Shown one piece after another: positions 1-21,486 of a stretch of DNA of 29,434 nt. Made by a program: the position numbers and the translations under genes. The DNA lies in contig DJPC01000016.1 of NCBI GenBank assembly GCA_002439665.1, positions 273 to 29,706 of the forward strand. The letters are read 5' to 3'. Numbering within the stretch: position 1 is the stretch's first letter; each line of letters begins with the position of its first letter. Source of the DNA: Dialister sp. UBA6422. GTDB taxonomy: Bacteria; Bacillota; Negativicutes; Veillonellales; Dialisteraceae. The notes under the pieces were generated by a model that made no database searches, had not been told where the DNA came from, and saw only the letters and a list, made by a program, of their open reading frames with translations.

Positions 1-792
1 GTTAGTCGCTGGATCAAGCTGGATGGCGTAGTCGCCTTCGTCTCCTACAGAGCCACTGCATCCCCTTTTGAAATCCAAAGTACCTCTAAAAATCTTCTTA
101 GATTCATCGGCCAGCGCACCTTTCACATCGATTTCAGCTTTTGTCTTTTTGCCTACATGGTCAATGTGATAAAACAGATCAAGCTGCTGTTTTTCTCTAG
201 CAGCATATACTGCTTTTTCTGTCATTTCAGACTTGTCGCCCAATAGCTTACCATAGCTATGAACGATAATCTTCTCTCCAGATAATTCTGCCGATGCAAA
301 ATGAGCTTTGGCCCCATCAGCAAAAAGGGTATGCCGCTGATCATATACCATTGTCTTGGCATGTCCATTTTCTACGGTAGACACAGTAAGCGTAGCGTTT
401 TCAGCCAGCTCATAATACACAGCTTTCACGCAAGTTCCCTCTACCGTATCACCTTTTATGTGCCACACCAATGACAAGGTAGAACCTTTTCCTACATGCA
501 CCAAAAACTGTCCTGCAAAATCAGGGGTAGCCGTAAGTGTAATGCTAAGTTTGGCTTCCTTATGATCAGGAACAGAAATGGTATACGACTTTCCTTGGCT
601 GCTAGCTGCTACTGTTTCTTTCGAAGCCCCATCAAAAGAAGCGGGTAATGTCCCTCCTTCTGTGATATACGTATCATCAGAAAAAGTCACTTCTCCTTGA
701 TTCTTAGGTTCTTCAAAAGAAAGGGACGTATCATTGGTATGAAGATACCGATAAGTAAGTAGCGGCAACCGGTTGACTTTAATTTCTTCCAT
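1..792 (-). CDS. sufD: Fe-S cluster assembly protein SufD (partial, 3' end outside window)
   Basis: SufD is the partner of SufB in the SufBC2D scaffold complex that builds and hands on Fe-S clusters in the cytosol. The reading frame is open from the left window edge to an ATG just downstream of sufB; about 264 codons are present and the C-terminal part lies outside. The visible part has the beta-helix style of the SufB/SufD family, for example GTLDFKRGCSGSVGDEGDYA near the break, where the conserved core of the family begins. Two adjacent ATGs (795 and 792) follow the ribosome site AAGGAGG. The second has the better spacing (5 bases, against 2) and is preferred. The ribosome site overlaps the end of sufB, so the gene is cotranscribed as third gene of sufC-sufB-sufD. 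The identification rests on order plus sequence style; I am fairly sure. Confidence 0.88.
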   Translation of the reverse strand, partial: MEEIKVNRLPLLTYRYLHTNDTSLSFEEPKNQGEVTFSDDTYITEGGTLPASFDGASKETVAASSQGKSYTISVPDHKEAKLSITLTATPDFAGQFLVHVGKGSTLSLVWHIKGDTVEGTCVKAVYYELAENATLTVSTVENGHAKTMVYDQRHTLFADGAKAHFASAELSGEKIIVHSYGKLLGDKSEMTEKAVYAAREKQQLDLFYHIDHVGKKTKAEIDVKGALADESKKIFRGTLDFKRGCSGSVGDEGDYAIQLDPATN

Positions 793-802
793 CATGCCCT
801 CC

Positions 803-2215
803 TTATCCTATAGCGCCTTCAAATTCCAAATCAATGAGACGATTCATTTCCACCGCATATTCCAAAGGCAAGGCCTTGGAAATCGGTTCTGCAAACCCGC
901 GAACCAACATAGCCTTTGCATCTTCCTCAGTCAGGCCACGGCTCATGAGATAATAAATATCTTCATCAGGGATGCGACCAATTTTGGCTTCATGCCCCAA
1001 ATCAATGTCATCATTTTCAATGATAATATCAGGAATAGTATCTGAACGGGATTCATTATCCAGCATCAAAGATTCGCAACTGATAGATCCCTTTGTTCCA
1101 GTCGCTTTGGGACCGATGTAAACGACACCACGATAAATGGCTGTTCCCCCTGCTTTGGAAATGGATTTGGAATTCACTGTCATAGACGTATTCTTGCCCA
1201 AAGCTTCTACTTTAGAACCTGTATCTAAGTATTGTCCCTTGCCAGCAAAGGTGATACCCGTAAATTCACAGGTAGACCGATCGCCCTTAAGGACCGTATC
1301 TGGATACAAACAAGAGGTATGAGAGCCAAAAGACCCAGATACCCATATCATATGACCATCCTCTTCTACCAAAGCTTTTTTGGTATTCAGATTGTACATA
1401 TTCTTTGACCAGTTTTCGATGGTGGAATACCGAAGAGAAGCGCCTTTCTTGACAAAGAGCTCTACCGCACCAGCGTGAAGATTGGCTACATTATATCGAG
1501 GCGCACTGCACCCTTCAATAAAATGACAATCTGCCCCTTCTTCCACAATGATTAAGGTATGTTCAAACTGCCCTGCACCAGGAGCATTTAAGCGGAAATA
1601 ACTCTGAAGCGGCATCCGTACATGCACCCCTTTAGGCACATAGACAAAAGAACCGCCAGACCATACCGCATAATGGAGAGCTGCGAATTTATGATAATTA
1701 GGCGTAATCAGTTTTCCAAAATATGGTTTAATGAGTTCTGGGTATTTCTTAACAGCTGTTTCGAAATCCACATAAATAACTCCTTGTTCTTCCAATTCTT
1801 TTTGGATATTATGATACACCACTTCAGAATCATACTGCGCCCCTACACCAGCCAAAGACTTCTTTTCCGCCTCTGGAATGCCCAGACGATCAAAGGTATC
1901 CCTAATATTTTCAGGAAGATCTTCCCACTTGGCCTTCATGTCTGTTTTAGGACGCACATAAGTATCAATATGGGTCATATCCAATTCAGAAATATCCGGT
2001 CCCCAGGGTGGAAAATCCAATTTATTATATATCTGAAGCGCAGCCAGACGCTTTTCTAACATCCATTCTGGTTCCTCTTTTTTGGCAGAAATTTCACGAA
2101 TGATATCTTCTGTCAACCCAGCATCCGCCTTGTAAGAGAATTCTACCGCATCTTTGATATCATAAATACTGCGATTGATATCCTCCACTTGGCTTCTTAC
2201 TTTTTCCTCCGCCAT
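803..2215 (-). CDS. sufB: Fe-S cluster scaffold protein SufB
   Basis: SufB is the main scaffold on which the SUF machinery assembles Fe-S clusters, in complex with the ATPase SufC and with SufD. The 470-residue length is normal for the family. Recognisable blocks are the N-terminal SufB-specific region (KSLAGVGAQYDSEVVYHNI), the beta-helix core (SGSFGSHTSCLYPDTVLKGD), and the C-terminal SCESLMLDNESRSDTIP and LGHEAKIGRIPDEDIYYLMS segments. The first of these holds the conserved Cys that corresponds to the catalytic cysteine of the family. The start follows GAGGTG, 7 bases upstream, inside the end of sufC. The gap to sufC is only two bases, so translation is probably coupled. No SufS/SufU cysteine desulfurase pair is visible; it may lie beyond the left edge. 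Confidence 0.97.
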   Translation of the reverse strand: MAEEKVRSQVEDINRSIYDIKDAVEFSYKADAGLTEDIIREISAKKEEPEWMLEKRLAALQIYNKLDFPPWGPDISELDMTHIDTYVRPKTDMKAKWEDLPENIRDTFDRLGIPEAEKKSLAGVGAQYDSEVVYHNIQKELEEQGVIYVDFETAVKKYPELIKPYFGKLITPNYHKFAALHYAVWSGGSFVYVPKGVHVRMPLQSYFRLNAPGAGQFEHTLIIVEEGADCHFIEGCSAPRYNVANLHAGAVELFVKKGASLRYSTIENWSKNMYNLNTKKALVEEDGHMIWVSGSFGSHTSCLYPDTVLKGDRSTCEFTGITFAGKGQYLDTGSKVEALGKNTSMTVNSKSISKAGGTAIYRGVVYIGPKATGTKGSISCESLMLDNESRSDTIPDIIIENDDIDLGHEAKIGRIPDEDIYYLMSRGLTEEDAKAMLVRGFAEPISKALPLEYAVEMNRLIDLEFEGAIG

Positions 2216-2217
2216 GA

Positions 2218-2961
2218 TTACACCTCACTGCGGTATGCATCAAAACCATTGGTTTCGATTTCATCCACCAGTTCAGGGCCGCCTTCTTTAACGATACGAC
2301 CATCAATGAGCACATGAACAAATTCTGGAGTAATAAACTTTAGGATTTGATTCAGATGGGTGATAATCAGGATGGCATTGTTTTCATTGTGGTATTCAGA
2401 AATATTTTGAGATACAATGCGGACCGCATCTACATCAAGACCTGAATCGGTTTCATCTAGCATCGCCAGTTTCGGATCTAAGATACGCATCTGCAATATT
2501 TCACTTTTCTTTCTTTCACCCCCAGAAAAGCCATCATTCAGATATCGATCTGCATAGGATGGATCCATCGCAAGGTCTTCCATACGAGCTTTCATAAGCC
2601 GTTTGAAAGGAAAGAGTCTCTGCTGTTTCCCTGAAATAGTCGCTTTTGCGGTACGAATAAAATTTTCGGTAGTAATCCCTGCTACAGAAATAGGATTCTG
2701 GAAGGATAAGAAAATGCCTAATTTAGCTCTTTTATCTACCGAAAGAGTCGTAATATCTTCCCCTTCAAAATAAATATGCCCCTCAGTAATTTTATAGACC
2801 GGATTTCCCATGATGGCATGAAGCAGCGTTGACTTGCCTGCCCCGTTAACGCCCATAATCACATGGACTTCCCCTGTATTCACGGTGAGGTTAATGCCGT
2901 GAAGGAGTTCTTTTCCGCCTACAGATACGTGGAGATTTTCCACGCGAAGTAATTCACTCAT
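2218..2961 (-). CDS. sufC: Fe-S cluster assembly ATPase SufC
   Basis: SufC is the cytosolic ABC-type ATPase that drives conformational change in the SufBD scaffold. It is not a transporter. The 247 residues contain Walker A GVNGAGKST (about 37-45), Q-loop SFQNP (86-90), signature SGGERKKSE (from 146), Walker B LAMLDETDSGLD (165-176) and the H-loop LIITHLNQIL. The TDSGLD sequence and the KKSE after the signature are typical of SufC as opposed to transport ATPases. The ATG is preceded by a strong ribosome site, GAGGTGATC. It is the first gene of sufC-sufB-sufD, and a near-consensus promoter lies about 70 bases upstream of the start. Confidence 0.97.
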   Translation of the reverse strand: MSELLRVENLHVSVGGKELLHGINLTVNTGEVHVIMGVNGAGKSTLLHAIMGNPVYKITEGHIYFEGEDITTLSVDKRAKLGIFLSFQNPISVAGITTENFIRTAKATISGKQQRLFPFKRLMKARMEDLAMDPSYADRYLNDGFSGGERKKSEILQMRILDPKLAMLDETDSGLDVDAVRIVSQNISEYHNENNAILIITHLNQILKFITPEFVHVLIDGRIVKEGGPELVDEIETNGFDAYRSEV

Positions 2962-2991
2962 TTGATCACCTCAAACTATATTGTAACCTGC

Positions 2992-3009
2992 ATGCGCTAA
3001 ATAGCGTAT
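2992..3009. repeat. 18-base dyad in the suf leader, possible operator
   Basis: The sequence ATGCGCTA-AA-TAGCGTAT is an inverted repeat with one mismatch. It sits just downstream of the predicted suf transcription start, a usual place for a repressor site. An Rrf2/IscR-type regulator would be a natural candidate for an Fe-S operon. That assignment is inference, since the site does not match a consensus I can recite with confidence. Confidence 0.4.
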
Positions 3010-3028
3010 ACAATTGAAATCTTATTTC

Positions 3029-3057
3029 ATTATATTCGATTTGCTCTTCTATTACAA
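3029..3057 (-). promoter_or_regulatory. Promoter of the suf operon
   Basis: Reading on the minus strand, a -35 TTGTAA (3052-3057) and a perfect -10 TATAAT (3029-3034) are separated by 17 bases. Transcription would start near 3022, about 60 bases before the sufC ATG. There is no other gene between it and sufC, and the preceding gene ends in a strong terminator. Confidence 0.75.
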
Positions 3058-3070
3058 GACATAAGGAGGC

Positions 3071-3086
3071 CTTGAGAAATCTCGAG
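3071..3086. repeat. 16-base dyad upstream of the suf promoter
   Basis: CTTGAGA-AA-TCTCGAG is an inverted repeat with one mismatch, centred about 22 bases upstream of the -35 box. The position would suit an activator or a second operator. No regulator can be named. Confidence 0.35.
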
Positions 3087-3093
3087 TGATTCA

Positions 3094-3146
3094 AAGAATT
3101 TATAGTCATATAAATTTTATACAAACCATGAGCCCTATAAATTCTT
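3094..3146. repeat. Nested inverted repeats in the gap between suf and the solute-binding gene
   Basis: AAGAATTTATAG (3094-3105) is repeated perfectly in inverted orientation as CTATAAATTCTT (3135-3146). Within the left part lies a second perfect dyad, AATTTATA-GTCA-TATAAATT (3097-3116). The two structures share the left arm and so exclude each other. Apart from the suf promoter, three dyads and the terminator at 3288-3336, I see no gene in the roughly 376-base gap 2962-3337. Confidence 0.45.
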
Positions 3147-3287
3147 ACACAGCCACCTATTTACCATTTTCTCTTCTCTCTTTTGCAAAAAGCGCAAGAA
3201 TTTTTTGAGACCATAAATATATAAGAAATAAAAATGTCCACAAATTCACTCTATGCATAAAAATAAACCATTCTATTTCCTAAAAAG

Positions 3288-3336
3288 AAAAAGAGTGTGT
3301 GACAAAATACTTACCCATTTGTCACACACTCTTTTT
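3288..3336 (-). terminator. Strong terminator after the solute-binding protein gene
   Basis: A 19-base perfect stem (3288-3306 with 3318-3336, core AGAGTGTGTGACAAA) encloses an 11-base loop and is followed on the minus strand by TTTTTCTTTTTA. It begins directly after the stop codon at 3338. The A/T tracts on both sides mean it could also stop transcription on the plus strand. Confidence 0.9.
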
Positions 3337-3337
3337 T

Positions 3338-4174
3338 CTATTTCTGGATATCTGGTTCTTGACTGAAGTTACTATCAGAAAACCACTTATCATAAATTTT
3401 ATCGTATTCCCCATTACTCATCAAAGTAGCAATGGCATCATTCACCTGTTTCTGTAATTCTGGATCCTTTTTGTTGAGAAGCATGACAAATCCGCCGCTG
3501 CCAGAAATAATGCCTGCGCCTCTCAGTTTTTCTTTAGCTCCATGTTCCATATAAAAACGAGCCACTGGTTTATCCAAAATCAGTGCATCAGCTTCTTTAT
3601 TTTCTACCGCTTGTATCAGCTGGTCATGGTAATCGTATTTTTTGACTTCACCGCCATACTGTTGCGCCGTTTCCACATATACGGTCCCTTTTTCCACAGC
3701 TACTGTCTTTCCCTTTAAGTCTTCTGGTCCCTTGATAGAGTTATCGCCCTTCCGTGATAGGATCGCTACATTTTCCTTGCTATAGTAAGTGGAAGAAAAA
3801 TTCACTTTATCCGCTCTATCCTGTGTCATATCACAAGCTGCTACTGCTATATCGGCCTTATTATCTACCAGTGCAGGAACCAATTGATCAAATGGCATAC
3901 TTTCATAAGTAGTTTCTGCGCCCATCTCTTTAGCAACTGCTTTGGTGATATCGACATCAAAGCCTACGATTTCCCCTTTGTTATCTTTATAGACAAAAGG
4001 TGGATAGGTGGCAATACATGCTACTTTTAATACTTTCTTAGGTGATGCCGAAGTAGAAGCTGCTTCTGATTTCGGATTTTCACTCTTCGCTGTGCCGCCG
4101 CATCCAGATGCCAAACCCATAGCCAAGAGCGCCAATACGCAAGCTCCAGCTTTCATCCATTGACGATTCATCAT
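3338..4174 (-). CDS. Amino-acid ABC transporter solute-binding lipoprotein (family 3)
   Basis: This is predicted to be the extracytoplasmic binding component of a polar amino acid importer. The 278-residue protein opens with a lipoprotein signal: positive start, hydrophobic stretch, and lipobox LASGC with the modified Cys at residue 25. A serine/lysine-rich spacer follows, then a type 3 periplasmic binding domain. Family marks are YPPFVYKDNKGEIVGFDVDI, the PFDQLVPAL and KADIAVAACDMT segments, LKGKTVAVEKGTV and a C-terminal GEYDKIYDKWF. The start has AAGGAGG six bases upstream. The gene stands alone between a promoter and a terminator, with no permease or ATPase gene next to it, so it must share a transporter encoded elsewhere or act as a sensor protein. 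The substrate cannot be told from sequence alone. Confidence 0.9.
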   Translation of the reverse strand: MMNRQWMKAGACVLALLAMGLASGCGGTAKSENPKSEAASTSASPKKVLKVACIATYPPFVYKDNKGEIVGFDVDITKAVAKEMGAETTYESMPFDQLVPALVDNKADIAVAACDMTQDRADKVNFSSTYYSKENVAILSRKGDNSIKGPEDLKGKTVAVEKGTVYVETAQQYGGEVKKYDYHDQLIQAVENKEADALILDKPVARFYMEHGAKEKLRGAGIISGSGGFVMLLNKKDPELQKQVNDAIATLMSNGEYDKIYDKWFSDSNFSQEPDIQK

Positions 4175-4221
4175 ATGACGCCTCCTTGAAAGAATTTTTG
4201 ATATACACCATTTTTCTTTTC

Positions 4222-4250
4222 ATTATATAAATAGAACCTAAAATGTGCAA
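4222..4250 (-). promoter_or_regulatory. Promoter of the solute-binding protein gene
   Basis: On the minus strand a -35 TTGCAC (4245-4250) and a perfect -10 TATAAT (4222-4227) are separated by 17 bases. They lie about 48 bases upstream of the ATG and leave a short leader. Confidence 0.75.
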
Positions 4251-4380
4251 GACTATGATACATAGAAAAGAATATCTATAAAAAGCTATATCCTTTGGCC
4301 ATATGTAACTGCTTTCTCCCCCATATATACAACTGATAAAAATGGATAGTTCCTTATTTCTTTATTTTCCAAATAGTTAT

Positions 4381-4425
4381 AAATAAAAATAGCCAGATAG
4401 GAAAAATATTTTCCCATCTGGCTAT
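4381..4425 (-). terminator. Terminator after polC
   Basis: A 17-base stem with one mismatch (4389-4405 with 4409-4425; arms ATAGCCAGAT and ATCTGGCTAT) with a 3-base loop is followed on the minus strand by TTTTTATTTAT. It lies 20 bases past the polC stop codon. Confidence 0.85.
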
Positions 4426-4445
4426 CAATAGGCGTGCTAGACCTA

Positions 4446-7400
4446 TTAGAATGAAAACAAACTAATCTGTTCTTCCTCTGGTAACCCCTTTAAGATTCCC
4501 ATGGAATCCATCATATCGATGATACTCTGGCTCACTTTGCCTCGCTTCTTTAAATCTTCTTTGGAAGTGAAGCTATGCTGTTCTCTGGCCTTCACAATTT
4601 CTTTGGCCACCGCATCCCCTAAAGCAGGAATACAGTTAAAAGGTGGTAGCAACTTACCATCCACCATAAGAAACTCCGATGCATCGGAATGTTCCAAATC
4701 GATCGGCAAGAATTCCATTCCTCTTAGATACATTTCTGCTGCTACTTCAATGACTGTGGCATTGCCTTTTTCCACAGCTGACGGTTTATCCAAAGCAGCA
4801 ATACGAGCCAATTCTGCTTTCTGTGATTCTAGGCCTTTTAAAATAACAGGTGCATTGAAAGATCCTTCTGCTCTGATGGTAAAGTACGCCGCATAGTATG
4901 CCAACGGTTGATATACCTTAAACCAAGCAATACGGAAAGCCATCATAACATAGGCCACCGCATGAGCTCTTGGGAACAAATAGCCAATTTTTAGACAAGA
5001 ATCAATAAACCATTGCGGAATATGCGCTGCATCTAGTTCTGCTCGGTTATTGGATCCTCCCTTTTCCAATCCTTTCCCTTTACGTACATTTTCCATAACC
5101 TTAAAGGAGGTCAGCGGTTTCACTCCATGTTGAATCAAAAAGTTCATCACGTCGTCTCTGGTAGAAATCGCTTCTTCCAATTTAACAGTTCCATTTTTGA
5201 TGAGGTCCTGGGCATTATTTAGCCATACATCTGTACCATGAGAAAATCCTGAAATTCGTACCAATTCAGAAAAATTCTTCGGCCTTGTATCTTCTAACAT
5301 GCCTCGCACAAAAGGCGTGCCATATTCAGGAAGCCCCAATGCACCTACAGTGACACCTTTGTTGCCAATGGCACTGGCCAGCTGTTCTGGTGTGAGTCCT
5401 AAAGCTTCTGGTGAGCTGAAGAGAGACAGTGTCTTTTTGTCATCAAAAGGAATTTTCAGTGGGTCGATGCCAGTGATATCTTGCAACATACGAATGACTT
5501 TCGGATCATCGTGGCCCAGAATATCCAGTTTCAACATACGACCAGAAATAGAATGGTAATCAAAATGAGTGGTAATAGTGCCAGGGATCTGATTTCCATT
5601 TTCATCTTTTAAATATTTTTTATTGGCTGCATATTGTAATGGAGTGAAATTATGGATATCCATATCTCTTGGACATACCATAATCCCCGCCGGATGCTGA
5701 CCGGTGGTACGCTTTACACCAGCTACCCCGGCAGAAAGTTTTTCAATGAAAATATCATTGAAGGTAAGTCCCCTATTTTCTGCATACCGTTTGACAAAGC
5801 CATAGGCGGTCTTATCTTGGATCCCTGCAATAGTTCCTGCACGGAAGACATTATCTCTTCCAAAAAGTTCTTCTGTGTACTTATGAGCCACCCCTTGATC
5901 ATCACCGGAAGAAAAGTTCAAATCGATATCAGGTACTTTATCTCCATCAAAGCCCAAGAAAACAGCAAATGGAATATTATGTCCATTTTTGGCTAGGTCA
6001 TGACCACACTTTGGACATTTTTTATCTGGTAAATCGAAGCCACCACCTACAGAGCCATCGGTAAAAAACTTTGTCCAATGGCAATGGGGACATACATAGT
6101 GCGGCGGCAGCGGATTGACTTCTGTAATACCGGACATGGTAGCGACAAAAGAAGAACCTACAGAACCTCTAGAACCCACCAAATATCCTCTATCATTGGA
6201 ATGTTTAACTAGTTTGTGAGCGATATAGTACAAAACGCCATAGCCATGATTGATGATTGGCGTCAGTTCCAAAGTCAGCCTATCCTGCACAATCTGGGGT
6301 AAAGGATCCCCATAAATGGCTTTCGCATTGGCATAGCACATGTCCACCAATTTCTTATCCGCCCCTGCAATTTTTGGATTGTAAGACTTCCATTCTTCTG
6401 CCAAAGGTTTCAGCACTTCACACTGCTCAGCAATTTTTCTCGTATTGGTGACCACGATTTCAATGGCTTTGTCTTTAGGGAGATAATCAAATTCATCTAA
6501 CATTTCCTGGGTCGTACGGATATACACCGGCGGATGGGACTCAATCTTTCCGGGTTTCTCCCAGTTGGATAGAAGAATATCTCGATTTCTTTGGTCCTCT
6601 GCAAACATATAATGAGCATCTGATGTAGCACAGCATGGCATGCCTGCTTTATCGGCGATCTCAATGACTTTTCTATTCAAATCCTGCAAATCTTTTTTGG
6701 AATTCACATGAGGAAATTTATCATCATTGATAAGAAATTCATTGTTCCCTAAGGGCTGCACTTCCAAATAATCATAGAAGCGTGCCTTTTTGAGTAATTC
6801 TTCATCACTTTCTTCTGCCAGCACAGCACGGAAGAATTCTCCCATGACACAGGCAGAACCATAAATGAGTCCTTCGTGTAATTCTTCCAAAATAGGTTTT
6901 GGAATCAGTGGTCTCTTACGATAAAACTTCAGATGAGATAAAGTAACCATACGATACAAATTGCGAAGACCTGTAATATTTTTGGCTAAAATAATAATGT
7001 GATTATACTGCTGTCTATCTGTATCTGGGTCTTCGGGAATCTGCTCAATCATATAGCCTTCCATCCCATAGATGACTTTTTGATGATATTTATCTGCCAG
7101 ATCTTGAATTTTAGGAAATGCCTGGATAACACCATGATCTGTGATAGCTACAGCAGGATGTTTCCATTTAGCCGCTGTTTTAATGACTTCTTCATTATCT
7201 ATAAGACCATCCAAACTCATTTTAGTATGCAAATGAAGTTCTACTCGCGGCGTGGGGTAATGATCTTCATGCGCAATGGTTTTCGCTTCTCCCTTTTCTA
7301 CTTGCAGAAGTTCTAGCACCAATCCCCCTGAATATTTATCCAGGCGCATATTCCCCCGCACTTTAACAACCGCACCAGGTTTGAGTCCTTCTACCCCTTC

Positions 7401-8226: not shown

Positions 8227-9573
8227 TTAAGATGGATCTTTATTATAAGTAATCACTGTATCTACCGCTTCGTAATCAGAGAAAAAGCTATCTTGATAGG
8301 TTCTTCCATCCGCCCATTTGACTTTTTGGACGATAGTGACTTTGTGTCCTTCATGACCAGGTTCTTCCTTCTTATCTTCAGCTTGAGATGGATCAATCTT
8401 AGTAATCGTCTTGAAAGGAAGCGTTTCTTCTTTGGTTTGAGTAATATCCACATGGGACGGCTGATCATTCTCATTTCCCAAAATCCAAATGGTCACCTGT
8501 CCTGCCGTATATTCTGTATAGATATAAACCCCATGTTTTAAATGATTTCTAAAGCAAAAATCCAAAGATCCTTCTGCTACTGTGGCATCTCGGCCCATAG
8601 GAACATAGGATACCGGTGAATAATGACAAGTTCTCTGGGTCACTTCCAAGCCAGATAACAGGACTGCATTAAAAAGCGTACTACTTACCTGGCAAACGCC
8701 TCCGCCTGACCCTGGTTCTAATTTACCGTTGATAATGACTGGTGCTTCTAGATATCCATTGGCAGAAGACCTCAAACCAGTGGTTTTATTAAAGGAAAAT
8801 ACCTCTCCTGGACGAATAAAAACACCATTTAAGCTTTTAGCAGCCAATTCAATATTTTTGCTCCGATTCTTTTCAGGATAAAAAGAAGTGGAATAGCACC
8901 CTAAGACTCGATTGATTTCTTTGGCTTCACTAACGCTCATATTGGGGTCTTTTTCTTCGGATACAGGAATCTCCATCTTTCCTGACTCCCCATTGGTCAA
9001 GTACTTGTCTATAGAGGAAGTGAGTTCATCTGTTTTAATTTTTAAATACGGTCTTCCCTTAGAAAATGTGACAGAGCCATCTCTCTTAAATGTTGGATAT
9101 GCATTATGGGGCGGTTTTTCATAAGTTTTTTCTAAATTCTTAATATAAGATTGCAATGCATCTGTATCATACACCGCTTCCATATGCGAAGCCTGTCCAT
9201 TCCAAAGAATATGCCACCGGTCGTACCACTTTTCAAACAAGTTACCTGTACGCCCCAAAGCCATGGCATCTTGCAAAGATGACTGGTCATAATGGACATG
9301 TAAATCACCATAAGGCAAAGTTTCTTCCACTTCACCTCGTGTCAAAATCAATTTGCCTTTTTTGAGTTCTTCATTCTTATCCGCCATCAGTGATTCTAAT
9401 TCTTCTCTATTTTTGCCTCCCACATTGATCCCATTGATATAAACACCGGGCACAAGTGCATCTGATTTGACCCATATAAAAGGAGCGATAACTATGCCAG
9501 CTGCCAGAATAGATAAGAATGAAATTATCCACCGTTTTCCCCGATTTGTTTTTTTCAAGAAACGTCCCTTCAT
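8227..9573 (-). CDS. VanW family membrane-anchored cell-wall protein
   Basis: The protein has 448 residues. A basic start (MKGRFLKKTNRGKRW) and one hydrophobic segment (about 15-36) act as signal anchor and place the rest outside the membrane. A putative peptidoglycan-binding region of the YoaR type follows (VYINGINVGGKNREELESL). The VanW domain (about 235-370) has its hallmark FIRPGEVFSFN, GGGVCQVSSTLFNAVLLSGL and SYVPMGRDATV segments. Despite the name, these proteins are widespread and do not imply vancomycin resistance; the biochemical role of VanW is not established. I chose the ATG at 9573, which overlaps the holA stop as ATGA, over an upstream TTG at 9582, so translation is probably coupled to holA. 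The position between the replicase genes holA and polC is unusual. Confidence 0.88.
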   Translation of the reverse strand: MKGRFLKKTNRGKRWIISFLSILAAGIVIAPFIWVKSDALVPGVYINGINVGGKNREELESLMADKNEELKKGKLILTRGEVEETLPYGDLHVHYDQSSLQDAMALGRTGNLFEKWYDRWHILWNGQASHMEAVYDTDALQSYIKNLEKTYEKPPHNAYPTFKRDGSVTFSKGRPYLKIKTDELTSSIDKYLTNGESGKMEIPVSEEKDPNMSVSEAKEINRVLGCYSTSFYPEKNRSKNIELAAKSLNGVFIRPGEVFSFNKTTGLRSSANGYLEAPVIINGKLEPGSGGGVCQVSSTLFNAVLLSGLEVTQRTCHYSPVSYVPMGRDATVAEGSLDFCFRNHLKHGVYIYTEYTAGQVTIWILGNENDQPSHVDITQTKEETLPFKTITKIDPSQAEDKKEEPGHEGHKVTIVQKVKWADGRTYQDSFFSDYEAVDTVITYNKDPS

Positions 9574-10568
9574 TTCATACAATATTGCAAAAGCAGATCT
9601 TTTAATTCTGCCTCAGAATTTCCTTGGCGGGAATAAAACTGATACTGAAAAATTTTCAACAAAAACCATTCTACCTCATCTTCCGTTACTTTTCTGGCAT
9701 CCGCCACTAAATATTTCCATTGCCATGCTTTGCTAATATGTAACATCTGCTGCATCCGAAGTACTGGTACTCGATTTCTTTCCATCTCTTTTAGCATTTT
9801 GATTTGTCTAAATTTAGCAGAAAGGGCTCCTAAATTTTTAATAGTAGTGGAGGTATCTGTAAATACTCTATCTGCACTGGCCAATACAGCCGATGATTTT
9901 TTATCAAGTAATACATTGATAAATTTGAACACTCCCTGATTCATATAATCAGGCAAAGCCAGTTCCAATATATGTTTTGTTACCACCGATTCGTTGCCAC
10001 ACATCAGTACAATCTTATCACATTCTGTCTGTAATAGAGGCAGAGAAACCGTATCCCATGAAGAAAGTACCATTTCCATATAATTCCTTCCTGCAAAATC
10101 CACTCGTTTCCCCGCTTGCTGTAACATATGAATCATCATTTCCGCCGCATCGGAAGATTTAAGTAAGTCCAATTTTTCGCTATAACAAATAGAAAGAAGC
10201 GATTTAACAATTTTTGTCCGGCTGTCTGCTTTTCCATCTAGCAAAATTAAGCAAAAAATATCTGGGGGAAGATTCTCTAAGGTGTTTAAAAAAGAAACTT
10301 GTGCTGGATCTTCTTTGCTAGACTTAGATATTCTTTTCAAAAATGGCGGATTATGGATCATAACAGCTGTCGCTGAAGAAAAAAGAGATTGTCCTTCCAA
10401 TGCATTCTGATAGGCCTCATAATTTCCCTGTCCATCAAATTCCGTCACTTCAGGAGGATTGTTATGAAAATAAGCTTGTAATAGAGCGTCTTTACGCAAG
10501 CTAATAGATACCAGATCTTCTCCATATAAAAAACAACAATTTGCTTTATTCAGTTTTTTTACTGCCAT
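9570..10568 (-). CDS. holA: DNA polymerase III delta subunit HolA
   Basis: HolA is the clamp-loader wrench that opens the sliding clamp. The 332-residue length fits the family. Supporting features are the N-terminal NCCFLYGEDLVSI block (the family's YG-D element), an AAA-type fold without a functional Walker A, CLILLDGKADSRTK in the first domain, and the C-terminal helical collar region with SAVLASADRVFTD and LGALSAKFRQIKMLKEM. AGAAGGACG serves as ribosome site. It lies 117 bases downstream of comEC, a conserved neighbourhood in Firmicutes, and its stop overlaps the vanW start. Overall similarity of HolA proteins is low, so the assignment uses position and fold pattern together. Confidence 0.9.
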   Translation of the reverse strand: MAVKKLNKANCCFLYGEDLVSISLRKDALLQAYFHNNPPEVTEFDGQGNYEAYQNALEGQSLFSSATAVMIHNPPFLKRISKSSKEDPAQVSFLNTLENLPPDIFCLILLDGKADSRTKIVKSLLSICYSEKLDLLKSSDAAEMMIHMLQQAGKRVDFAGRNYMEMVLSSWDTVSLPLLQTECDKIVLMCGNESVVTKHILELALPDYMNQGVFKFINVLLDKKSSAVLASADRVFTDTSTTIKNLGALSAKFRQIKMLKEMERNRVPVLRMQQMLHISKAWQWKYLVADARKVTEDEVEWFLLKIFQYQFYSRQGNSEAELKDLLLQYCMK

Positions 10569-15347: not shown

Positions 15348-16925
15348 TCACTTGTCTTTCAATACTATCAGTATGCATAATACAGGTAGACATAGCACAT
15401 AGCTAAAAGAATAACGAAAAACCGAAGAGGCTGGCGTTGAGAGGAGCAAGATAGCTGTATTGAGTAAAAGAGGACTTGCACCAAGTCCGTAGTTTTTCTG
15501 TTGTAAATGGAACATTAATAGAATCCACAAAGTCATCCATAAGCATAGGCCCGTTCCTAAAAAGTGACTTCCTTCCCATTGTATCCTAGCTAATATGGAT
15601 TTTAAAAACATAGGCATGGGAAAATGCCCCACAGCCATGCGATCATTATCTGCAGGAACCATATGAGCTGTATTATCGTCACTAAGAGCCCATCCAAATC
15701 TAGACTGCACCCCATATTCCATAGGATCCACATTCCATAGAGCATATGTTTCTGTCAGCCATCCTTCTATATAGATTTTAGGATTATCTATCCCTGTTTC
15801 TAGCCAAAGACGTAAGAATTTTCCTTTTTCCTGATTTAATTCATGCCTTTTGAAATCATCATGCCATTTCACAAAGTCCACAGTATAAGGAGAATAAGTT
15901 TCTTTCCAAATGGAGGTTTTCAAAATGCCATCCATCATATCGACCGTTTCTTTGCTTCTTGTACCATGCGTAACCAAGGTGCGTCCCAATTGCTGCAAAG
16001 GAATCGCCATAGATTCTTGAAATAAAGGTTCAAAATGATGTACTTCTTGAATCCAACGAGCTGGGAAAATCGCAAGCATCATACTTAAAAGACAAGGAAT
16101 CCATATGTATCGATTTCCGTATTGATACACCAAAAGTCCTGTAAGAATGACAGACAAAATAATCCCATTATTTCTAAAAAGCATGGTGCCCAATAACGCT
16201 GCAATCAATAATATATACCGTTTTCTATCCCATCTAGGATTTTCACGGAAAAGTAAAAACAGCCACATCCAAAGCAAAAGAGATAAAGAAAATATACCAT
16301 CTCGCACCGCTGCTATATCATAATTCCCTACCATAGGCCAGAGGGTAAAGAATAAATAGAGGCCCCATCCCATCTTTTCATGATAATGATTGATCACCCA
16401 ATAGCAAAAACGGGTCAAGGTAAAAGTCATCACCCCCAATTGAATGAGTGATAAAAGAAAAATAATGGGTTCTGCTGTTCCTATCCATTGGCGGCCCCAA
16501 AATGCACCATACCCATAGATCAAAGAATAGAGCCAAGGAAATTGGATGCTGCCATATAAGGGATGATTGATCATAAAAACAGTGTCATTCATTCCTGGTG
16601 CTGGATAAAAAGCTAGCAAAAAAGGAATCTGCCAAAGAAACATGAAAAGAGCTGCCAGATAGAAATGCTTGTGTCCCTGCCTAGGACTTCTCTTCCATTG
16701 CCAATGAGCAAGACGAGGAAGAGTCATCACAAGGATAAGAAATAAAAAAGCAGCCACATCAGCAATAACAGCTAAATCCCACCATTCTAAAATAGGATAA
16801 CCTGGTAGTGACAACTTCCCTTCTCTATCCATGTAATCTATTTTGAGTGTATACCAAATGGCACTGCTAAGCCCTAGTGAAAAAATGCCAATCCATCGAT
16901 GGCCTGCCAGCTTCTTAAGAATCAT
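15348..16925 (-). CDS. Multi-pass membrane protein, GT-C/DUF6020-like
   Basis: The 525-residue protein has many membrane spans, starting with IGIFSLGLSSAIWYTL and AVIADVAAFLFLILVMTLP. The first large outer loop carries FYPAPGMNDTVFMINHPLYG (about residues 106-125). An acidic residue in that place is typical of GT-C fold glycosyltransferases and of the DUF6020 family of membrane proteins. A long soluble part near the C-terminus (about 310-440) contains QLGRTLVTHGTRSKETVDMM. The ATG at 16925 is preceded by AGGAGGTG at good spacing and lies downstream of a terminator. A longer frame to 17006 would begin inside that terminator and is rejected. A role in cell-surface glycan assembly or modification is inference; no sugar or lipid partner gene is adjacent. 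Confidence 0.8.
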   Translation of the reverse strand: MILKKLAGHRWIGIFSLGLSSAIWYTLKIDYMDREGKLSLPGYPILEWWDLAVIADVAAFLFLILVMTLPRLAHWQWKRSPRQGHKHFYLAALFMFLWQIPFLLAFYPAPGMNDTVFMINHPLYGSIQFPWLYSLIYGYGAFWGRQWIGTAEPIIFLLSLIQLGVMTFTLTRFCYWVINHYHEKMGWGLYLFFTLWPMVGNYDIAAVRDGIFSLSLLLWMWLFLLFRENPRWDRKRYILLIAALLGTMLFRNNGIILSVILTGLLVYQYGNRYIWIPCLLSMMLAIFPARWIQEVHHFEPLFQESMAIPLQQLGRTLVTHGTRSKETVDMMDGILKTSIWKETYSPYTVDFVKWHDDFKRHELNQEKGKFLRLWLETGIDNPKIYIEGWLTETYALWNVDPMEYGVQSRFGWALSDDNTAHMVPADNDRMAVGHFPMPMFLKSILARIQWEGSHFLGTGLCLWMTLWILLMFHLQQKNYGLGASPLLLNTAILLLSTPASSVFRYSFSYVLCLPVLCILIVLKDK

Positions 16926-16971
16926 CCCATCACCTCCTGGGAAAGCAATACCTAGATTATGAAATCCCATC

Positions 16972-17008
16972 AAAAAAACTGTGAAACAATACATGTATTG
17001 TCTCACAG
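16972..17008 (-). terminator. Terminator of the cydB-like/small ORF unit
   Basis: CTGTGAAACAATACA and TGTATTGTCTCACAG (16979-16993, 16994-17008) form a hairpin with one mismatch. It is followed on the minus strand by seven T residues (16972-16978). It lies 25 bases after the stop codon of the 56-residue ORF. Confidence 0.9.
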
Positions 17009-19744: not shown

Positions 19745-20665
19745 TTATGACTTATCAATTTCCACAATGACTGTAGCTTGGGGGACAGTAAATGTACCGC
19801 CTGTAGGTTTCGGTAATGTCACCACTTGACGAATTTCTTTATCAGCGCCTGACACATCGATAGGATCGAGTTCCAATATGGCATGCTTATCAAAATAACT
19901 AACCGGTGCTGTCAGTGTAGCTACTGGAGGATCCACTGTAATTTTCCCTACTTTATACCCTTCTGCCGGTTCCCCTTTGGTCGTGGCTTTGATGGGCAAA
20001 TTGCCTACTCTAGTCATTTCTTTCATGTGAATATTGACTTTGACCTGGCTAGGCATGACATCCAGTCCAGTCACAGTATTGCCATCGGCGTCTAAAATAT
20101 TAACACTATCAAATTCTACAAAGTTCTTGTCTTTACCAGACATATTGACAGAAACCACAGCTCTATCTGCTTCGTCCACTTTTTCAGAACTCCCGGCAAT
20201 AGTGATCGTATCTGGTGTGACTTTCTTACTTTCTGCAGAGAAATTCAAATCTGGCGTACCAAAGAGTTCGACCATAGCTGGCAATGTCTTCACTGCATAG
20301 GTATCTACTTTCAGATCAAAATATTCTGGAGTAACGGACACCACGGTTTCATCCCCTGGGACAGATACCAGGATTTTGGTATTTGGAAATTCCCCATCGG
20401 TCATTCCCGATAAATCCACATAGGCTTTGATATTGTCAGCCCGCATATAAATCATATCACTTCGAGCCATACGGACTTTGACTTTAACTTTAGAAGGTAC
20501 ATTGGTTGCTACCAAGGAACGATCCAGATTTCTCACTTCTACCGGAACTGTATAGGTATTTTCTACTCGAGGATTTTGTTCATTCATTACATATACCCAG
20601 AATGCGCAAGCTGCAATAAGGCATAAAAGTTTCGGCAGCCACCAGTCATATTTAGTATATTTCAT
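19745..20665 (-). CDS. cdaR: CdaA regulatory protein CdaR (YbbR domains)
   Basis: CdaR is a membrane-anchored extracytoplasmic protein that modulates the diadenylate cyclase CdaA. The 306 residues start with a short basic region and one membrane anchor (LLCLIAACAFWVYVMNEQNP, about 13-32). Three to four YbbR repeats follow, each with the pattern of a VPVEVRNL- or PAMVELFG-type strand and a DTITIAGSSEKV or PSQVKVNI segment; three starts are clear and a fourth is near the C-terminus. The ATG at 20665 overlaps the cdaA stop as ATGA and has GGAG upstream. The ATG at 20680 lies inside cdaA without a ribosome site and is rejected. Translational coupling to cdaA fits their complex. Confidence 0.93.
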   Translation of the reverse strand: MKYTKYDWWLPKLLCLIAACAFWVYVMNEQNPRVENTYTVPVEVRNLDRSLVATNVPSKVKVKVRMARSDMIYMRADNIKAYVDLSGMTDGEFPNTKILVSVPGDETVVSVTPEYFDLKVDTYAVKTLPAMVELFGTPDLNFSAESKKVTPDTITIAGSSEKVDEADRAVVSVNMSGKDKNFVEFDSVNILDADGNTVTGLDVMPSQVKVNIHMKEMTRVGNLPIKATTKGEPAEGYKVGKITVDPPVATLTAPVSYFDKHAILELDPIDVSGADKEIRQVVTLPKPTGGTFTVPQATVIVEIDKS

Positions 20666-21486
20666 TTCAAGGGGCTCCATTTCTGTAATACATCACTAAC
20701 GCCCTTCGGTTTTCCTTTCATTAAATAGTTGCGAAGGACATTTTTTAAACTTTCCGCATCTTGTCCGCGATAAATATGACCACCGTAGGTATAAGAAACA
20801 ATTCCTGTTTCTTCGCTAACCACCACGATGACGCAGTCTGCCTGTTCACTCATACCAATGGCTGCTCTATGGCGGGTCCCAAGCTCAGAAGAAAGGCTAT
20901 GATCCCTAGTCAATGGTAATAGGCAACCGGCAGCCATGATGCGATTTTCACGAATAATTACGGCTCCATCATGAAGTGGAGTATTGACGATAAAAATATT
21001 ACCCAAAAGTTCTTTGGATACCAATCCTTCAATACGAATCCCTGTATCTATACGGTCATCAAGACCTACACTTCTTTCAAAAACAATAAGAGCCCCAATC
21101 TTATTAGCAGACATAACCATAGCGGCATCTACCACATCATTGATCACATGGTCCCATTCAATTTCATTCATCATGCGGGAAGATACATAAAATTTACCTC
21201 TACCAATCTGTTCCAAAGCACGACGAAGTTCCGGTTGAAAAACAACCGGAAGGGCTACGATCAGAACAGTCATCAGTTTGTCTAGAATCCAGCTAACTAC
21301 ATGAAGCTGAAGCCATCCTGCAAACACGGTAAAAACACCAAGGAAAATAAGCCCCTTCAAAAGAGCAGTGGCCCTTGTATTTCTAATCAAAATATATATG
21401 CGATATAAAAAGAATGCTACCACTAGGATATCCAATACATCCCAGAGTCGCATGGTCATAAAAAGTCCCTGTATCTGACTGATCAT
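20662..21486 (-). CDS. cdaA: Diadenylate cyclase CdaA
   Basis: CdaA makes the second messenger cyclic di-AMP from two ATP. This controls potassium and osmolyte uptake and cell-wall balance in Firmicutes. The 274 residues begin with three membrane helices (about 12-32, 39-58, 63-82). The DAC domain carries both catalytic motifs: DGA at 173-175 (NTPLHDGAVIIRENRI) and RHR at 205-207 (SSELGTRHRAAIGMSE). The ribosome site is AAGGAAC. It is first in cdaA-cdaR-glmM, the canonical arrangement that distinguishes CdaA from DisA or CdaS. No phosphodiesterase (gdpP, pgpH) is in the window. Confidence 0.97.
   Translation of the reverse strand: MISQIQGLFMTMRLWDVLDILVVAFFLYRIYILIRNTRATALLKGLIFLGVFTVFAGWLQLHVVSWILDKLMTVLIVALPVVFQPELRRALEQIGRGKFYVSSRMMNEIEWDHVINDVVDAAMVMSANKIGALIVFERSVGLDDRIDTGIRIEGLVSKELLGNIFIVNTPLHDGAVIIRENRIMAAGCLLPLTRDHSLSSELGTRHRAAIGMSEQADCVIVVVSEETGIVSYTYGGHIYRGQDAESLKNVLRNYLMKGKPKGVSDVLQKWSPLK

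Follow-up and report, generated by a model that had tools for sequence, protein, structure and literature searches.

The window analysed here, a stretch of 29,434 nucleotides from a Dialister-like bacterium, encodes on its minus strand a PolC-type DNA polymerase III of 1225 amino acids (Table 1). The protein exceeds the cut-offs of both curated PolC models (NF001688, 1371.5 bits against 873; TIGR01405, 1272.6 bits against 1043.45). Directly upstream of polC, on the same strand, lie the gene of a VanW/G5-domain protein (8227–9582) and holA, coding for Pol III delta (9570–10568). Two further minus-strand open reading frames, 15348–17006 (552 aa) and 19745–20680 (311 aa), had no NCBIfam match. 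The nearest named relatives are Dialister genomes, with 83–84% identity.

Table 1. Features of the polC gene and its product (window positions; residues refer to the protein)
Feature	Position	Strand	Basis
polC, exo-less PolC-type DNA polymerase III, 1225 aa	4446..8123	-	NF001688, TIGR01405 above cut-off; no PF00929
PHP domain, residues 295-447, uninterrupted	6783..7241	-	PF02811, 8.7e-31 (Pfam)
19-residue loop (356-374); in Exo-bearing PolC a 209-217-residue insert	7002..7058	-	135-PolC alignment; sequence
Nine PHP metal ligands H297, H299, D329, H330, E355, H375, C425, D502, H504	6612..7235	-	HHDHEHCDH
Zinc-type cysteines C678, C681, C703, C706	6006..6092	-	aligned with 3F2B
Palm Asp-x-Asp, D732 and D734	5922..5930	-	aligned with 3F2B
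C-terminal QISLF, clamp-binding type motif, residues 1219-1223	4455..4469	-	translation

A PolC without the exonuclease domain

The protein has the domain order of PolC, with OB before PHP and HhH after the polymerase core. In Pfam, the OB domain (residues 199–268) scored 24.9 bits, just under the cut-off of 27, and HHH_6 (1135–1215) follows the polymerase core and fingers. The nine PHP metal ligands, the four presumably zinc-binding cysteines, the palm residues D732 and D734 and a terminal QISLF, presumably of the clamp-binding type, are all present, as read by eye and against the structure 3F2B, and the gene looks not dead, as the first-pass annotation had argued from the same motifs.

A DnaQ-like exonuclease domain (Exo) inserted in PHP is usually regarded as the hallmark of PolC, and it is absent from the window protein. 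PF00929 has no match anywhere in the whole protein, so relocation of Exo to another part of PolC can be ruled out. The PHP ligands E355 and H375 are separated by 19 residues, compared with 209–217 in 39 PolC with a live Exo. Exo-bearing PolC of the B. subtilis and G. kaustophilus type belong to the same family and have the same core, but their PHP loop carries this insert, which is about 213 aa long. Thus, the annotation correctly described a PolC without its exonuclease domain and a PHP contiguous as in DnaE, which Pfam matches in one unbroken piece. The stretch it quoted lies in the window sequence where it had been placed, and the alignment with other PolC that it proposed shows the insert to be missing.

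The best solved structure for the protein is that of G. kaustophilus PolC, 3F2B (alignment over residues 188–1224), a structure without Exo according to PMC3919608. The same paper (Timinskas et al., NAR) reports that exo-less PolC account for 6% of PolC, that with one exception they come from Clostridia and Negativicutes, where DnaE1 always accompanies them, and that their share within PolC+DnaE1 systems is 16%. This variant, by definition without Exo, is described there with the architecture that we find in the window (NTD/OB, PHP without Exo, Pol3, HhH), and the window protein fits it in being a PolC with a contiguous PHP and relatives in Negativicutes. The exo-less PolC of the window is this published variant, a known trait of its class. 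The passages of PMC3919608 that describe the variant, supplements aside, do not state its class-wide extent, repeated loss or a dead Exo.

Spread in the class and the phylum

The search of named genomes gave ten loci. Of these, nine are full-length (L001–L009, from Dialister, Allisonella and uncultured Veillonellaceae/Veillonellales, including type-strain assemblies), and all nine have the same junction with no internal stop; L010 begins past the Exo site and is uninformative. Among the best 120 of 7314 protein matches to the window PolC, none carried PF00929. The junction shared by the nine relatives, together with the class-wide absence of Exo, makes a sequencing or assembly deletion in this strain next to inconceivable. 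What might have been a strain-specific oddity is a published trait of the class, common to the relatives.

In the class of D. succinatiphilus, exo-less PolC occurred in all of the at least 148 genomes listed, out of 250 searched. Among the matches listed, 150 PolC matches in 148 class genomes all continued without a break through the Exo site (alignments starting no later than query residue 187; open frames of 1093–1350 aa); the other 102 of the 250 genomes lie outside the list of PolC matches. G073 and G209 each have two exo-less copies. In the 30 class PolC loci that were read, the loops measure 12–29 residues.

PF00929 matched in 43 of 50 class genomes, never in an open reading frame of PolC length, and seven were without any match. 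Six of the matches lie in frames of 866–1012 aa, at least some of which start like a UvrD-type helicase by eye. Frames of about 861–875 aa in class genomes, at L011, L054, L055, L056 and L061, join a UvrD-type helicase start to PF00929 and were read by eye as fusions.

The phylum sample comprised 149 genomes from Clostridia-like groups and the window's class; like the 250 class genomes, they were requested at a completeness of at least 90%. A PolC-level match was present in 113. The 36 others (G258 and 35 more) had DnaE-level matches only and were excluded, as were six genomes whose PolC is cut by a contig end (G257, G297, G326, G333, G371, G397), leaving 107 classifiable PolC. Of these, 65 lack Exo (unbroken match or stub), 41 have a match that breaks at the Exo site, in longer frames that contain PF00929, and one (G381) has a dead Exo. 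The excess over the published shares (65/107 versus 6% and 16%) probably reflects the sampling of uncultured species.

Repeated change of the Exo state

The core tree included 135 PolC, 95 with a short loop or stub and 40 with an Exo-size insert, whose columns were omitted. This tree was built by a quick method, with no bootstrap replicates, and its root was placed on an Exo-bearing group of our choice. The Exo-bearing G261 and G366 are absent from it, and L001–L009 were omitted, the same genes having entered via G handles. The tree needs eight changes of Exo state, five of them forced by branches with an SH-aLRT of at least 95. A single exo-less clade was rejected on 53 chosen rows, with L146 scored as lost (lnL 217 worse, p-AU 3.8e-43). 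All rows from the window's class, 33 when the window itself is counted, fall into a single supported exo-less clade, which fits a single loss in the ancestor of the class.

Across the 39 live-Exo rows, Exo and core distances correlate (r 0.74; none of 2000 permutations was as high), which speaks against repeated insertion. The polymerase-only tree also gave eight changes, four of them forced. The PHP-only tree gave 12, only two of them forced; it has little resolution and does not gather the exo-less forms. On these two trees, segment swapping was rejected as the source of the scattered pattern.

One fully supported clade contains a live Exo (L139 and L141), a dead one (L146) and a 39-residue stub (L162). 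In L146, whose PolC gene spans 732–5075 on the plus strand, the dead Exo is an Exo-like insert of 198 residues that lacks DEDDh, while the PHP ligands of the protein are intact; a pattern test found DEDDh in the 39 other Exo-size inserts. This state is not a matter of a single assembly, because independent database proteins of 1389–1436 aa, namely P0122–P0124 (78–99% identity to L146), P0127 and P0128 (58%), also have an Exo-like insert without PF00929. Stubs of 39, 33 and 27 residues occupy the Exo site in P0125, P0126 and P0131, respectively, and 213 residues are found there in P0129, P0130, P0132–P0135 and P0146. All 22 proteins of this alignment, with live, dead or stub Exo, have the PHP ligands HHDHEHCDH. 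At the Exo site of the L129 PolC there is an 84-residue Ala/Pro-rich stretch, perhaps another stub.

In 14 pairs compared, the dead Exo mostly diverges faster than the live one. Where the rest of the protein is 92–93% identical, dead Exo are at 61–70% (three pairs) and live Exo at 82% (one pair); where it is 81–83% identical, the values are 37–38% (two pairs) and 66% (one pair). The exception is the dead pair P0127/P0128, with Exo at 74% and the rest at 88%, which shows no faster divergence.

Dead Exo and stubs show, at the level of sequence, loss in at least one lineage. The series of live, dead and stub forms and the single insertion site point to loss, not gain, as the direction of change. 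Most likely, Exo was lost several times among Clostridia-like Firmicutes.

Candidates for proofreading without Exo

All nine ligands of the M. tuberculosis DnaE1 type are present in the window PolC. According to PMC5636811, they hold a trinuclear zinc centre in that enzyme, which proofreads with it; the paper also places the PolC Exo in the loop that adjoins the active site of PHP and that measures 18 residues in Taq, and describes the G. kaustophilus PolC as having one PHP ligand changed and no PHP exonuclease activity. The window protein resembles DnaE1 with a PHP exonuclease (M. tuberculosis, T. thermophilus) in its contiguous PHP, nine ligands and short loop beside the site; it differs in belonging to the PolC family, in whose exo-less members a PHP exonuclease is putative.

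Of 95 exo-less PolC, 94 have all nine ligands, the sole exception being L098 (HHEHEHCDH); among the 40 PolC that carry an Exo-size insert, 36 have them. Although this difference gives a Fisher p of 0.027, we do not take it as proof, because the four Exo-bearing exceptions, all D to N, form one clade. In a set of 72 exo-less PHP regions, built with 71 of the 93 available loci and not including L098, all nine ligand columns are invariant. Since the site is intact in Exo-bearing PolC too, its conservation is not peculiar to exo-less forms, and PHP was probably kept, not regained. The annotation had suggested a revived PHP nuclease: PHP stands as a candidate, its revival does not.

In DnaE, the nine PHP ligands are complete in all 44 proteins (24 from exo-less genomes and 20 others), which were chosen from listed rows, not drawn, and of which L232, among the 20, comes from G297, whose PolC is cut by a contig end. 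In the relative G007, a second C-family polymerase, 1199 aa long, likewise has intact PHP ligands (L190). The spacing between the flanking ligands is 12–20 residues in 88 of 95 exo-less PolC and 16–21 in the 44 DnaE.

A 2026 polymerase survey (PMC12926913) describes most Clostridia as carrying DnaQ in PolC together with an active PHP in both PolC and DnaE1, and states that in Pol III alpha subunits it is PHP that has been inactivated, and not DnaQ. As that statement is worded, the dead-Exo PolC with intact PHP ligands (L146, P0122–P0124, P0127, P0128) are exceptions to it. For C. difficile, no paper on PolC, DnaE and proofreading turned up in a literature search.

We consider it probable that the window encodes a working PolC, that the DnaQ-like Exo was lost from it in the ancestor of the class Negativicutes, and that the PHP site of PolC itself or of DnaE1 removes mismatches. 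Cells would have tolerated the loss because each of the two C-family polymerases retains all nine ligands of its PHP site. In cells with exo-less PolC, proofreading would most likely be done by PHP, and we infer that PHP is catalytically active in exo-less PolC and sufficient for this task. Several observations count against such an explanation: the PHP-only tree forces just two changes, Exo-bearing genomes are also often free of any DnaQ besides PolC, the PHP ligands are nearly as well kept in Exo-bearing PolC, one exo-less PolC (L098) has an altered ligand, and a stand-alone DEDDh protein does exist in Dialister and its kin.

We regard as unlikely the alternative that a stand-alone DnaQ-like exonuclease supplies proofreading in trans, in the manner of epsilon with E. 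coli DnaE; the sliding clamp might tether such an enzyme to the fork. All seven genomes related to the Dialister window have a stand-alone DEDDh frame of 200–222 aa, whose nearest NCBIfam model is PRK06195 ("Pol III subunit epsilon"), although below its cut-off. In one branch of the family (P0242–P0244, query from L012) the protein ends in QSSLF, QLSLF or QISLF, which is of the clamp type, and for these reasons a trans proofreader may exist in Dialister and its kin. However, only four of 62 stand-alone DEDDh tails fit Qxx[LI][FL]; nine have a similar motif without Q, and 49, the D. succinatiphilus type included, have neither. The idea that the Dialister exonuclease is a relocated PolC Exo is not supported, as it scores far higher with PRK06195 (172.7 bits) than with the PolC model (75.6 bits). 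In a tree of Exo domains, weak owing to long branches and open forks, PolC Exo and stand-alone groups lie nearly apart (two changes, one forced). By our own size rule, frames below 600 aa are stand-alone and longer ones helicase fusions; a stand-alone DnaQ-like frame is then present in 32 of the 62 genomes with exo-less PolC and in 23 of the 41 with Exo-bearing PolC (Fisher p 0.69, kinship ignored), so compensation by extra DnaQ genes is unsupported. No DnaQ of any size besides PolC was found in 18 of 62 exo-less and 13 of 41 Exo-bearing genomes. PF16473 and TIGR00573 were absent too from 26 genomes without PF00929: the 18 exo-less ones, the dead-Exo G381 and seven of the class, of which G008, G026 and G050 have a listed exo-less PolC and G020, G252, G253 and G254 are not among the PolC matches listed. 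Thus, 22 genomes with exo-less or dead-Exo PolC had no DnaQ-family match (PF00929, PF16473, TIGR00573; E 0.001) and seem to do without a DnaQ-type proofreader, although a gene may have been missed where a genome is incomplete, or a distant homologue may be too weak for this threshold. The separate exonuclease that the annotation had considered is therefore not supported as a general replacement; its proposed search, run on relatives, succeeded in the seven related genomes and found nothing in several others.

Somewhat more doubtful still is the idea, raised in PMC3919608 (2013/14) as the question whether DnaE1 performs normal replication there, that DnaE1 is the main replicase and PolC a minor or special enzyme without need of its own proofreading. 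The phylum-sample genomes without a PolC match (36 of 149) and the uniformly intact DnaE PHP sites agree with it. On the other hand, PolC occurs in all of the at least 148 class genomes listed, the window PolC keeps its clamp motif and polymerase site, and a PolC PHP intact in 94 of 95 cases would be needless if proofreading were dispensable. Finally, Exo may never have been present, exo-less PolC being the old form and Exo a later insertion. The DnaE PHP is contiguous too, and the exo-less loops match those of DnaE in size. We find this very improbable, however, because the gene tree, with its chosen root, mixes Exo-bearing with exo-less forms, dead Exo and stubs speak for loss in at least one lineage, and Exo evolved along with the core.

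Returning to PHP as the proofreader, we give about even chances to a broader proposal: in PolC+DnaE1 bacteria PHP would be the indispensable proofreader and Exo a dispensable one, switched off and deleted many times via a dead intermediate, with some lineages free of DnaQ. New here are the dead-Exo intermediates and the pattern in which Exo was lost, by which PHP proofreading in these bacteria would become a concrete, testable idea. If it is true, which nuclease proofreads a PolC+DnaE1 replisome could be tested directly, with the live, dead and stub series as natural comparisons. If PHP proofreads across a whole class of human-associated anaerobes, models based on B. subtilis would fail there.
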